NCBI RefSeq assembly: GCF_023501975.1
Contig: NZ_JAMFLH010000004.1
Span: 187,001-251,000, forward strand
Direction of reading: 5' to 3'
Origin: Altererythrobacter sp. KTW20L
GTDB taxonomy: Bacteria; Pseudomonadota; Alphaproteobacteria; Sphingomonadales; Sphingomonadaceae
Length of the DNA: 64,000 bases
Numbering within the stretch: the stretch's first letter is position 1; each line of letters opens with the position of its first letter. Below the pieces are notes generated by a model. The model did not search any database, was not told the DNA's origin, and worked only from the letters and a program-made list of their open reading frames with translations. The translations under genes were made by a program, and so were the position numbers. Below, one piece after another: positions 13,360 through 17,018 of the stretch.

Positions 13360-14457
13360 TCAGGCCGGCCGCACGTCCTCGTCCCTGAGCGGGGTATCGG
13401 GAATCGGCGCGGGATCGCCGGCCATGCGCGCCATGGCCATCAGGTCGCCCCGGCTCCAGCGCGGCATTGTTGCCACCGGCGGGGGCTGGCGCAGCGCCTG
13501 GCCGAAGGCGCGCAGCACGTGGCCCAGCTTGGCAAGCGCGCCGGTGTGGACCCGGTGATCCCAGGCTGCTGCTCCGCGCTGCCGCACCTCGCGTCCGATC
13601 GCGCCATAGATATTCGCCGCGGCCAGCACGGCCCAGCGCTGGCGGAAGGTGAGTCGTGCGGCGCCAAGCCGGGCGGCGGCCTCGTGTTCCTCGGCCATGT
13701 CCACCAGCCGCCGCACCATGGTGACCAGTTGCGGGCGGTAGCGTGGCTTCATGTGCTGGCCGGGGGGAATGTCGGCCTCGACGAGCCATTCGACCGGCAG
13801 GTAACAGCGCCCCGCCGCATCGTCTTCCCACACGTCGCGGGCGATATTGTTGAGCTGGAAGGCAAGGCCGAGGTCGCAGGCGCGGTCCAGCGTGTCGTGA
13901 TCGTCGGCCGCAACGCCCATGACGCGGGCCATCATCACGCCGACAGCGCCCGCCACGTGGAAGCAATAGCGCATCAGGTCGCCCTCGGTGCGCGGACGCC
14001 AGTCGGCGGCGTCGAGCGCGAAGCCGTCCACCACGTCATCGGCCATCTCGCGGGTCAGGCCGCATTCGTCGGCTACCAGGCCCAATGCGTCGAAGGCGAT
14101 GTCGGCGGTGGGCTGGCCGTCCAGCGCGCGGTGGGTGAGGGCGCGGATCGCTTGAACCCGTTCGACCGCCGCGCCATCGGCCTGCGACAGCTCGCCACCG
14201 TGATCCTGCCCGTCGGCCACGTCGTCGCACTTGCGGCACCAGGCATAGAGCAGGTGCGCCCGCTCGCGCGTGGCCTTGTCGAACAGCAGGCTGGCCACGG
14301 CAAAGCTTTTGGAGCCCCTGGCGATGGATTCGCGCGCTTCGTCCACCAGTTCGGCCCGCTCATGCCACCCGCCCGGCTGGCGCGGCGTCTCCCGCACATG
14401 GAGCGAGGGGACGAGCGTGCGCCCGGCTTTGCGCCCGGTGGTTCCCTTGCGCTTCAC
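13360..14457 (-). CDS. crtB: Phytoene synthase
   Basis: 365 residues from GTG 14457. Both aspartate-rich motifs of squalene/phytoene synthases are visible: RKCDDVADG and NNIARDVWEDD, with AGRCYLP next to the second. It condenses two geranylgeranyl diphosphates to phytoene. An N-terminal extension of about 30 basic residues before the conserved domain may mean that the true start is internal. It overlaps the LOG-family gene by four bases and is the last gene of the crtY-crtI-DUF559-LOG-crtB series. Confidence 0.93.
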   Translation of the reverse strand: MKRKGTTGRKAGRTLVPSLHVRETPRQPGGWHERAELVDEARESIARGSKSFAVASLLFDKATRERAHLLYAWCRKCDDVADGQDHGGELSQADGAAVERVQAIRALTHRALDGQPTADIAFDALGLVADECGLTREMADDVVDGFALDAADWRPRTEGDLMRYCFHVAGAVGVMMARVMGVAADDHDTLDRACDLGLAFQLNNIARDVWEDDAAGRCYLPVEWLVEADIPPGQHMKPRYRPQLVTMVRRLVDMAEEHEAAARLGAARLTFRQRWAVLAAANIYGAIGREVRQRGAAAWDHRVHTGALAKLGHVLRAFGQALRQPPPVATMPRWSRGDLMAMARMAGDPAPIPDTPLRDEDVRPA

Positions 14458-15035
14458 AGGTCGTCCGCTCTGATCTGCAGCACATTGGTGGTGGGGGTAA
14501 AGGTGGCCATCTTCTCCAACAGGTCGCGGATCGTTTCCGCAGCGATGATGATGCCACGATGGGCGGGGCGGACAAAGCCCACATCGCCCATCTTGCGGTT
14601 GAATTCCAGCAGGCCGTCATAGAACCCGAAGGCATTGAGCAGGCCGACCGGCTTGGCGTGATAGCCAAGCTGCGCCCAGCTCACCGCTTCCCACAATTCG
14701 TCCATCGTGCCGACCCCGCCGGGCAGGGTGACGAAGCCGTCCGACAGGTCGGTGAACATGCGCTTCCTCTCATGCATGCCGGGAACGACATGCAATTGGG
14801 TGCAATCGTGGTTGGACAACTCGTGCCCCGCCAGCGCTTCCGGGATCACCCCGATCACCTCGCCGCCAGCTTCTAGCGCAGAGGTCGCCAGCGCCCCCAT
14901 CAGGCCGACCCGGCCCCCGCCATAGACCACGCCAATCCCGCGCTCCGCCAGCGTGCGGCCAACCTCGCCCGCCAGCGCGATATAGCGCGGATCGGCCGGC
15001 GTGGCAGACCCGCAATAAACGGCAAGCCGCTTCAT
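14454..15035 (-). CDS. LOG-family protein (TIGR00730; nucleotide 5'-monophosphate phosphoribohydrolase-like)
   Basis: 193 residues with a Rossmann-like fold. The diagnostic PGGVGTMDELWE motif is present (PGGxGTxxE), with GGGRVGLMG upstream in the fold. Family members cleave ribose-5-phosphate from cytokinin ribotides or nucleoside monophosphates; bacterial roles vary. It is translationally coupled to DUF559 upstream and crtB downstream by four-base overlaps, so it is expressed with the carotenoid genes, but no link to carotenoids is known to me. Confidence 0.88.
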   Translation of the reverse strand: MKRLAVYCGSATPADPRYIALAGEVGRTLAERGIGVVYGGGRVGLMGALATSALEAGGEVIGVIPEALAGHELSNHDCTQLHVVPGMHERKRMFTDLSDGFVTLPGGVGTMDELWEAVSWAQLGYHAKPVGLLNAFGFYDGLLEFNRKMGDVGFVRPAHRGIIIAAETIRDLLEKMATFTPTTNVLQIRADDL

Positions 15036-15466
15036 AGAAAATCCTCCCCCAGCGGGGGAGGGGGACCATCCGCAGGATGGTGGAGGGGCGAGCGGCGCTC
15101 TGCCAAACGCGCTTCTCGTTCCTGACAGACAACCACAATCCTCAACACCACAGCCTCGATATCCTGCAACACAGCCTTGGCAGGAACTCGCAAGGTGGCA
15201 ACCCCCTGGGTGCTCAGAAAGGCGGAACGCTCTTGATCGCGCATAACGCGCGGTTCGCTGTCATGTGCCATGCCATCGACTTCGATGGCGAGGCGGAGCG
15301 CGCCACAGTAGAAATCCAGCACAAATGGCCCTGCCGGATGCTGGCGGCGAAACTTGTAGTCGCCCGGGCGCTTGCGCAGCTCGCGCCACAGCATTGTCTC
15401 GGGCAGGCTCATCTCGCTGCGGAGTTTGCGGGCGAGTTTCACCGTGCCCTTGGTGCCGGTGATCAC
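15032..15466 (-). CDS. DUF559 endonuclease-like protein inserted in the crt operon
   Basis: 144 residues of the DUF559 family, related to Vsr and PD-(D/E)xK nucleases. The expected active-site pattern is visible: RRQHPAGPFVLDFYC (D51) and LAIEVDGMAH (E62, D64). Residues 126-142, the HHPADGPPPP tail, are encoded by one copy of a hairpin repeat at 15042-15090. The GTG start at 15466 has GGAGGGG eight bases upstream, and that sequence is the end of the second, inverted repeat copy. So repeat DNA supplies both its ribosome binding site and its C-terminus. It sits between crtI and the LOG gene. Enzymatic activity is unproven. Confidence 0.85.
   Translation of the reverse strand: MITGTKGTVKLARKLRSEMSLPETMLWRELRKRPGDYKFRRQHPAGPFVLDFYCGALRLAIEVDGMAHDSEPRVMRDQERSAFLSTQGVATLRVPAKAVLQDIEAVVLRIVVVCQEREARLAERRSPLHHPADGPPPPLGEDFL
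15042..15090. repeat. Two-hairpin repeat, copy A (3' end of DUF559 gene)
   Basis: 49 bases forming two hairpins: CCTCCCCC-AGC-GGGGGAGG, then CCATCC-GCA-GGATGG, ending GGAGGGGCG. It matches copy B (15473-15521) in inverted orientation at 42 of 49 positions by my count. Differences cluster in the first hairpin (loop and adjacent base) and in one compensatory base pair of the second stem. Confidence 0.85.
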
Positions 15467-15472
15467 GGTGCG

Positions 15473-15521
15473 CGCCCCTCCACCATGCTGCGCATGGTCC
15501 CCCTCCCCGTGCCGGGGAGGA
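15473..15521. repeat. Two-hairpin repeat, copy B (5' side of DUF559 gene, at the crtI stop)
   Basis: Inverted partner of copy A. Read on the minus strand it begins directly after the crtI stop codon and ends in GGAGGGGCG, placing GGAGGGG eight bases before the DUF559 GTG. Its second hairpin is CCATGC-GCA-GCATGG, so the C-G pair of copy A has become G-C here and the stem is kept. Confidence 0.85.
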
Positions 15522-17018
15522 TCAACCCAGCAGGTCCTCGATCATCAACCCTGCCGTCGCCTTGGCGCTACCGACCACGCCGGGAATGCCCGCGCCGGGG
15601 TGGGTGCCTGCGCCCACAAGGTAAAAGTTGGAGATCACATCGTCGCGATTGTGGCCGCGGAACCAGGCGCTTTGCGTCAGCACCGGCTCCAAGCTGAAGG
15701 CGCTGCCGAGGTGGGCGTTCAGGTCCTGGCTGAAATCCTTGGGGCTGTAATGGAAGCTGGTCACGATCCGGTCATGGATGTCGGGGATCAGCCGGCGGCC
15801 GATCTCATCCAGGATGCGCTTTTCCAGATGCGGGCCGACCACGTCCCAATCGACATTGAGCTTGCCCCGGTGCGCCACCGGCACCAGCGCATAGAACGTG
15901 CTCTTGCCTTCGGGCGCCATACCGGGATCGGTTACCGTGGGGTGATGCAGGTAGATCGAGAAATCCTCCGGCAGCACGCCGTGGCTATAGATATCGTCGA
16001 GCAGGCCTTTGTAGCGCGGGCCGAACAGGATCATGTGGTGCGGGATGCCGGGCCAGGTGCCCTCGATCCCGAAGTGCACAACGAACAGGCTGGGCGAGAA
16101 GGTCTTGCGGCCCAGGCTCTTGGCCTGCGACTTGCCGCGATAGCTGTCGCCCAGAAGGTCGCGGTAGGAATGCATGATGTCGGCATTGCTGGCCACGGCA
16201 TCGAAAGTGCCCGACCAGCCGCTTTTGGTGCGCACGCCGGTGGCACGGTTACCCAGCGTTTCGACCCGTTCCACCCCGTCACACAGCCGCACCGTGCCGC
16301 CCAGCCGCTCGAAATGGCGGACCATGCCGGCGATCAGGCGATTGGTGCCGCCGCGTGTCCACCAGACGCCGCCATCCTTCTCCAGCTTGTGGATCAGGGC
16401 ATAGAGCGCGCTGGTCTTCATCGGGTTGCCGCCCACCAGCAGGGTGTGGAAGCTCAAGGCCTCGCGCAGCTTCTCGTTGCGGATGAACTTGGACACCATC
16501 GAATAGACCGAGCGCCAGGCCTGGTACTTCATCAGCGCCGGGGCGGCCTTGATCATCGACTTGAAATCGAGGAACGGCACTGTGCCCAGTTTGACATAGC
16601 CTTCCTGGTACACGCCTGCGGCATAGTGCAGGAAGGCATCGTATCCGGCCACGTCGGCGGGATCGAGCTTCTCGATCTCCTTGCGCAATTGCGGCTCGTC
16701 GTTCGAATAGTCGAAGTTGGTGCCATCGGGCCAGTTCAGCCGGTAAAACGGCATGACCGGCATCAGTTCCACGTCCTTCGCCATGTCGGCACCGCTCAGT
16801 TCCCACAGCTCGCGCAGGCAGGCGGGATCGGTGACCACGGTTGGTCCGGCATCGAATGTGAAGCCGTCCTTCTGCCAGAAATATCCGCGCCCGCCGGGCT
16901 TGTCGCGGCTTTCGATCACCGTGGTGGCGATCCCGGCGCTTTGCAGGCGGATGGCGAGCGCGAGGCCGCCGAACCCGGCTCCGATCACGCAGGCGGTGCG
17001 GGTTGTGGAGCTGGTCAT
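15522..17018 (-). CDS. crtI: Phytoene desaturase
   Basis: 498 residues. The N-terminal dinucleotide fold VIGAGFGGLALAIRLQSAG binds FAD, and the C-terminal signature GAGTHPGAGIPGVVGSAK is that of CrtI-type desaturases, which turn phytoene into lycopene at the membrane. Length is normal for the family. It overlaps crtY by four bases. The stop codon lies immediately next to repeat copy B, so any sequence between crtI and the following gene has been replaced by repeat DNA. Confidence 0.95.
   Translation of the reverse strand: MTSSTTRTACVIGAGFGGLALAIRLQSAGIATTVIESRDKPGGRGYFWQKDGFTFDAGPTVVTDPACLRELWELSGADMAKDVELMPVMPFYRLNWPDGTNFDYSNDEPQLRKEIEKLDPADVAGYDAFLHYAAGVYQEGYVKLGTVPFLDFKSMIKAAPALMKYQAWRSVYSMVSKFIRNEKLREALSFHTLLVGGNPMKTSALYALIHKLEKDGGVWWTRGGTNRLIAGMVRHFERLGGTVRLCDGVERVETLGNRATGVRTKSGWSGTFDAVASNADIMHSYRDLLGDSYRGKSQAKSLGRKTFSPSLFVVHFGIEGTWPGIPHHMILFGPRYKGLLDDIYSHGVLPEDFSIYLHHPTVTDPGMAPEGKSTFYALVPVAHRGKLNVDWDVVGPHLEKRILDEIGRRLIPDIHDRIVTSFHYSPKDFSQDLNAHLGSAFSLEPVLTQSAWFRGHNRDDVISNFYLVGAGTHPGAGIPGVVGSAKATAGLMIEDLLG

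Follow-up and report, generated by a model that had tools for sequence, protein, structure and literature searches.

The DNA analysed here, referred to as the window, is a stretch of 64,000 nucleotides from Altererythrobacter sp. KTW20L, and it holds on its minus strand, at 15032-15466 including the stop codon, a gene for a DUF559 protein of 144 amino acids with a GTG start, identified by its family profile (PF04480, E 2.2e-25). The host gene upstream of this insertion encodes a crtI-like phytoene desaturase (15522-17018, minus strand) and the one downstream a LOG-family (lysine decarboxylase-like) protein (14454-15035, minus strand). The LOG-family gene lies between crtI and a crtB-like gene, and most of the genus relatives examined have the same crtI-LOG order. 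Two inverted arms of 53 nt, detected de novo and identical in 45 of 53 positions, bracket the DUF559 gene. Arm A, the downstream arm of the unit, is found at 15041-15093 on the plus strand (covariance-model match G000:C30:202041-202093) and comprises hairpin 1 at about 15042-15062, a GGACC linker, hairpin 2 at about 15065-15081 with a C(GCA)G triloop, and the tail GGAGGGGCGAGC. Arm B, the upstream arm, is found at 15470-15522 on the minus strand (covariance-model match G000:C30:202470-202522), with its tail at 15470-15481, hairpin 2 at about 15482-15498 and hairpin 1 at about 15501-15521. A 28-nt core pattern had two matches in the window, both at the arms, where 0 were expected from shuffling.

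The earlier note on this DNA had described inverted copies matching at 42 of 49 positions, a count that was reproduced over exactly those bases, and had placed arm B directly after the crtI stop; the adjacency stands, but the 53-nt arm in fact overlaps the last base of that stop (TCA at 15522-15524, plus strand). The arms and the coding sequences are interlocked as it had described. Arm B supplies the GGAGGGG ribosome binding site exactly 8 nt upstream of the DUF559 GTG, and arm A encodes residues 126-142 of the protein, approximately, after which the frame takes in two codons of host sequence and ends at an ATGA shared with the LOG start. The LOG ATG in turn has the GGAGG of the outer end of arm A 7 nt upstream. 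At some insertions GGAGG was found 5-8 nt before an ATG. As a general rule a repeat-supplied Shine-Dalgarno sequence was rejected, 7/35 outer ends against 12/80 background GGAGG sites giving no clear enrichment, and arm-derived GGAGG as ribosome binding site is an observation at individual sites only.

The DUF559 protein is predicted to be a Vsr/EDxHD-type PD-(D/E)xK nuclease. Its predicted structure had a mean pLDDT of 90, with the repeat-coded tail from about residue 126 poorly ordered and of low confidence, and the nearest structures were 3hrl (uncharacterised), the homing endonuclease domain of I-Bth0305I (3r3p, probability 1.00, E 2.8e-4), PvuRts1I and Vsr (1vsr, probability 1.00), in agreement with the Vsr-like resemblance noted previously. 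A Vsr/EDxHD profile matched with E 0.014, and a weak restriction-type match was given by PADLOC (mREase_II, 3.5e-5). Residues E23, D51, E62, D64 and H68 are conserved in the alignment and fit a metal-dependent nuclease. VsrA, a DUF559 protein of Caulobacter, has been likened to mismatch-repair nucleases and reportedly damages DNA when a methyltransferase is mutated (PMC12907096), and the recombination hotspots listed in a Legionella study include a segment with a transposase and DUF559 (PMC12308824).

Four arms, the window's pair and the pair around a second DUF559 gene, were used to build a covariance model, which had 47 matches in the genome, 42 of them full-length and arranged in 23 groups, namely 19 pairs and 4 singles. 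All 19 pairs are head-to-head and oriented like the pair around DUF559. In 17 of them the arms are separated by 3-58 nt, forming short gene-less doublets in place of the unit interior seen in the window at 15094-15469 (minus strand), and the spacers fall into tight size classes with nine of 3-6 nt and six of 23-24 nt. The remaining two pairs both contain DUF559, one being that of the window (gap 376) and the other lying at the pntAA/pntAB junction (gap 342); DUF559 is the sole gene found inside gene-length arm pairs, which bears out the proposal that gene and repeats are one unit. Doublets and units are alike at their inner ends, the centre of the C4 doublet reading like the A-side end of the window unit joined to its B-side end. 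Identity between doublets on unrelated flanks is as high as 89-90%, and a search of 58 doublet loci found no trace of DUF559. The Y1 transposase family PF01797 had no member in this genome and was present in 3 and absent from 37 of 40 genus genomes. A RAYT/Y1 transposase was rejected as mover of the repeats, none being encoded in this genome. One doublet is situated in frame inside ligA, the gene of the NAD-dependent DNA ligase (G000:C6:21391-21499, locus L035), where it adds roughly 30 residues including the SPLHHPADGPPP peptide shared with the DUF559 C-terminus; this site is empty in four relatives.

The constant parts of the arms are CCTCC, GGGACC or TGGC, and GGTGGAGGGG or GACGGAGGGG. Folding was assessed on 43 distinct arms of equal length, with the stem positions left free by the selection pattern, and stem pairing was found in 99.2% of cells. 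Cells with double changes numbered 59 against 16.4 in shuffles, and 1-7 when the stems were slid by most offsets. The earlier note had taken the replacement of a C-G pair by G-C in hairpin 2 as a sign that structure rather than sequence is kept; the swap is real and the stem covariation upholds that reading. Among 206 parsed second hairpins 68 stem sequences occurred, and the triloop was GNA in 170/187 and TNC in 1, the inner loop being almost always C(GNA)G. Such C(GNA)G triloops form exceptionally stable DNA hairpins, and strand-specific recognition of folded arm DNA is therefore plausible. The arms also fold strongly as RNA, and folded RNA is possible as the recognised form instead of DNA. 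A known RNA family was dropped as an explanation of the arms, no Rfam match being found up to E 1, and chance or GC-richness as the source of the repeats was excluded by shuffles and by control positions within the loci.

Across this genome and 40 relatives (41 in all), matches to the arm model adjoin every window-clade DUF559 and none of the others. At least six arms were found in 9/9 genomes of the genus with a window-clade DUF559 and in 2/16 without one (Fisher 2.7e-5, ignoring phylogeny), the exceptions being G015 and G023 (79% complete), in which no window-clade DUF559 was detected. In a repeat-blind test, where the upstream flank was locally aligned to the reverse-complemented downstream flank, inverted repeats were obtained at 13/14 window-clade members against 2/25 core DUF559s, which occur one per genome. 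Scanning 84,980 species genomes with the DUF559 protein alignment alone gave 80 loci, 78 of them testable, spread over Novosphingobium, Erythrobacter, Qipengyuania, Sphingopyxis, Sphingomonas, Sphingobium, Croceibacterium and others. Flanking inverted repeats with a score of at least 18 were present at 76/78 of these loci against 26/814 control positions, and at the stricter score of 30 at 63/78 against 0/814, the control positions being neighbours within the same loci, matched for composition and not for gene type. The expectation that DUF559 genes of relatives are flanked is thus confirmed for the window clade, with 76/78 loci against 3% of control positions, but does not extend to the core class. 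Two sphingomonad-like DUF559 loci carry other names, L157 (Arthrobacter sp. TPD3018) and L166 (Microvirga sp. SRT01), and these are either mislabelled assemblies or cases of horizontal transfer.

The flanked DUF559 clade of the window is monophyletic (support 100/98). Between genomes, DUF559 identity predicts the similarity of the flanking repeats (rho 0.62, 0/2000 permutations), although orthologous flanks may contribute part of the signal at identities above 0.65, while different DUF559s within one genome have dissimilar repeats with a median score of 15. That the repeats are typical of the host and not of the enzyme was rejected by this comparison of within- and between-genome pairs. DUF559 and its repeats are linked.

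Inverted flanks are likewise present around most other full-score DUF559s of the genus, although the palindromes are different ones. In this genome a second palindrome, CCCCTCCCGCNNGCGGGAGGGG, occurs at 30 places, often paired (for example C23:74989-75633 and C9:12168-12266), and surrounds the DUF559 gene of locus L003. Among Alphaproteobacteria at large 17/29 DUF559 loci reach score 22 against 4/290 controls, these 29 being the best-scoring loci and not a random sample. The core DUF559s, scoring 50-60 bits (L006 and its orthologues L056-L065 and L117-L128), are without flanking repeats and may have a housekeeping role.

An empty crtI-LOG site, which the earlier note had proposed to look for, exists: of 30 relatives examined, most have crtI running directly into LOG, often with overlapping codons. 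In several of them (e.g. L072, L075, L078 and L086) the ATGA overlap with LOG is made by crtI itself, which is the cleanest sign of a unit of about 482 bp having entered a tight junction. This junction is occupied by a DUF559 unit in G051 as well and by other sequence in a few relatives. Empty sites were also found for the five doublets compared in near relatives; some of the sites empty in relatives hold an arm pair of the CCCCTCCCGCNNGCGGGAGGGG palindrome in G051 and G050, and some an unrelated repeat in G008 and G050. The etfQO-ispE junction is an insertion hotspot, where some relatives have nothing inserted and others a doublet, an entire DUF559 unit, an unrelated repeat of the CTTCGTCATTGCGAG type or different sequence (L018, L344, L345, L346 and L137/L138/L141); the full unit is there in several genera and a doublet in this genome.

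Altogether 92 units were distributed over 34 neighbourhood classes, and gene-bearing units keep the same gene junction across genera. The 15 recurrent sites required 22 changes on the tree, where 14 would be the minimum, and for this reason the gene-bearing unit is taken to be mostly inherited in place, moving rarely. Recurrent insertion at favoured junctions could account for part of the persistence of sites. RAYT genes have a similar habit, staying mostly in place with occasional movement.

The system is closest to REPIN/RAYT by its working but departs from it in the enzyme, which is not of the HUH type. Like REPINs and REPtrons (RAYT/TnpA-REP) as described (PMC3116915; PMC8266576), it has inverted hairpin doublets dispersed through the genome, mainly as pairs with a variable spacer of set length (19 pairs, 4 singles), repeat classes specific to the enzyme, stems with compensatory changes, and an enzyme gene that mostly stays in place between inverted copies of the dispersed repeat. 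Unlike REP/RAYT systems, where the enzyme is an HUH Y1 transposase, the enzyme here has a Vsr/EDxHD PD-(D/E)xK fold, DUF559 is the only gene in the unit with no PF01797 in the genome, there are two hairpins per arm, the copies number about 42 rather than hundreds, and no GTAG tag was found among the arms listed (260 arms were collected). The doublets resemble MITEs in that they are short and dispersed, have inverted ends and no gene, and have both empty sites and a relative that carries a gene; unlike MITEs, no classical transposase domain was found in the unit and the ends are structured and conserved by covariation. Inspection for a target duplication resolved none here, the flanks being too diverged and the outer AT self-complementary. 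The protein is similar to I-Bth0305I (3r3p) and Vsr (1vsr) in fold and sequence profile, but unlike I-Bth0305I it is not encoded in an intron or intein, is found at many unrelated sites and has inverted repeats around it, and the 34 neighbourhood classes contrast with a homing endonuclease gene at one allelic site. Orphan REPs, CGTC-tagged and untagged, are likewise dispersed palindromes, said to have no dedicated transposase (PMC3733652), and belong to a different sequence family.

The locus is probably a complete two-part repeat system of a DUF559 nuclease and its cognate arms, with the doublets as its non-autonomous relatives and the spread driven by the nuclease. The inverted arms would be palindromic ends to which the nuclease is adapted, and the head-to-head doublets gene-less relatives standing to it as REPINs or MITEs do to their source elements. 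An arm made single-stranded by replication, transcription or repair would fold into hairpin 1, the GGGACC or TGGC linker, hairpin 2 with its C(GNA)G triloop and the GGTGGAGGGG tail; we infer that the cognate DUF559 recognises this folded form and cuts at the arms, upon which the doublet, or rarely the gene-bearing unit, would be copied or moved, often into tight gene junctions. To our knowledge a lone PD-(D/E)xK nuclease has no strand-transfer activity, and copying would therefore depend on repair or replication by the host. Ribosome binding sites for DUF559 and the next host gene would come from the GGAGG motifs of the arms, so insertions inside operons would be tolerated. Of the earlier suggestion of a REP/RAYT-like family mobilised by a nuclease, the linkage is observed, mobilisation is what we infer, and gene-bearing units rarely change site.

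The order of events could be the reverse, with the doublets an independent family and the target of a homing-type DUF559 endonuclease that cuts doublet centres and inserts its own gene. The nearest characterised fold, that of the EDxHD homing endonuclease I-Bth0305I, would suit such a role, as would the constant insertion point within doublets, whose centres match the unit inner ends, and the fixed sites of units across genera. We nevertheless consider it unlikely, as genus genomes without a window-clade DUF559 mostly have no such repeats, the palindromes that go with other DUF559 clades are quite different, and the spread of doublets is left unexplained. Somewhat less probable again is that another enzyme moves the repeats and DUF559 is cargo, a repair, regulatory or defence nuclease carried along, for which VsrA, as described in PMC12907096, and the weak mREase_II match could speak. 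Flanking-repeat similarity, however, tracks DUF559 similarity and not the host genome, no gene besides DUF559 was found in gene-length arm pairs, and neither this genome nor 37/40 genus genomes have a Y1 transposase.

That doublets are DUF559 units having lost the gene in place, nothing gene-less ever having been mobile, would agree with the etfQO-ispE junction but is very improbable in view of 17 doublets against 2 units, the tight spacer classes, doublet loci free of detectable DUF559 remnants, and several doublet sites empty in relatives. Least probable is an ordinary regulatory RNA structure, a terminator or ribosome-binding module recurring by chance beside genes; the strong RNA folding of the arms and the GGAGG before some ATGs would be expected of it, but empty orthologous sites disfavour it, as do the lack of an Rfam match, the in-frame ligA doublet, and the strict pairing together with the enzyme correspondence.

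The preferred reading, nuclease-driven spread of cognate repeats, suggests a little-known kind of bacterial mobile repeat with an enzyme not previously linked to such repeats. No link between DUF559 and dispersed palindromes was found in the available text of open-access literature mentioning DUF559; within that scope the novelty is provisional. Mobilising enzymes are not known for many palindromic repeats of bacteria, and a survey from 2013 described a whole superfamily of bacterial palindromic repeats without known mobilising enzyme (PMC3733652). DUF559s may well make up a large class of enzymes that mobilise repeats and have been overlooked as such, with a palindrome particular to each clade and a Vsr-like nuclease replacing the transposase and driving the spread of REPIN-like doublets in Alphaproteobacteria, perhaps beyond. 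If DUF559 nucleases serve such repeats, a widespread family of unknown function would gain a role and the repeats of sphingomonads and other Alphaproteobacteria a source, and spread without a known transposase could be tested using a single small protein and an oligonucleotide of 50 nt.
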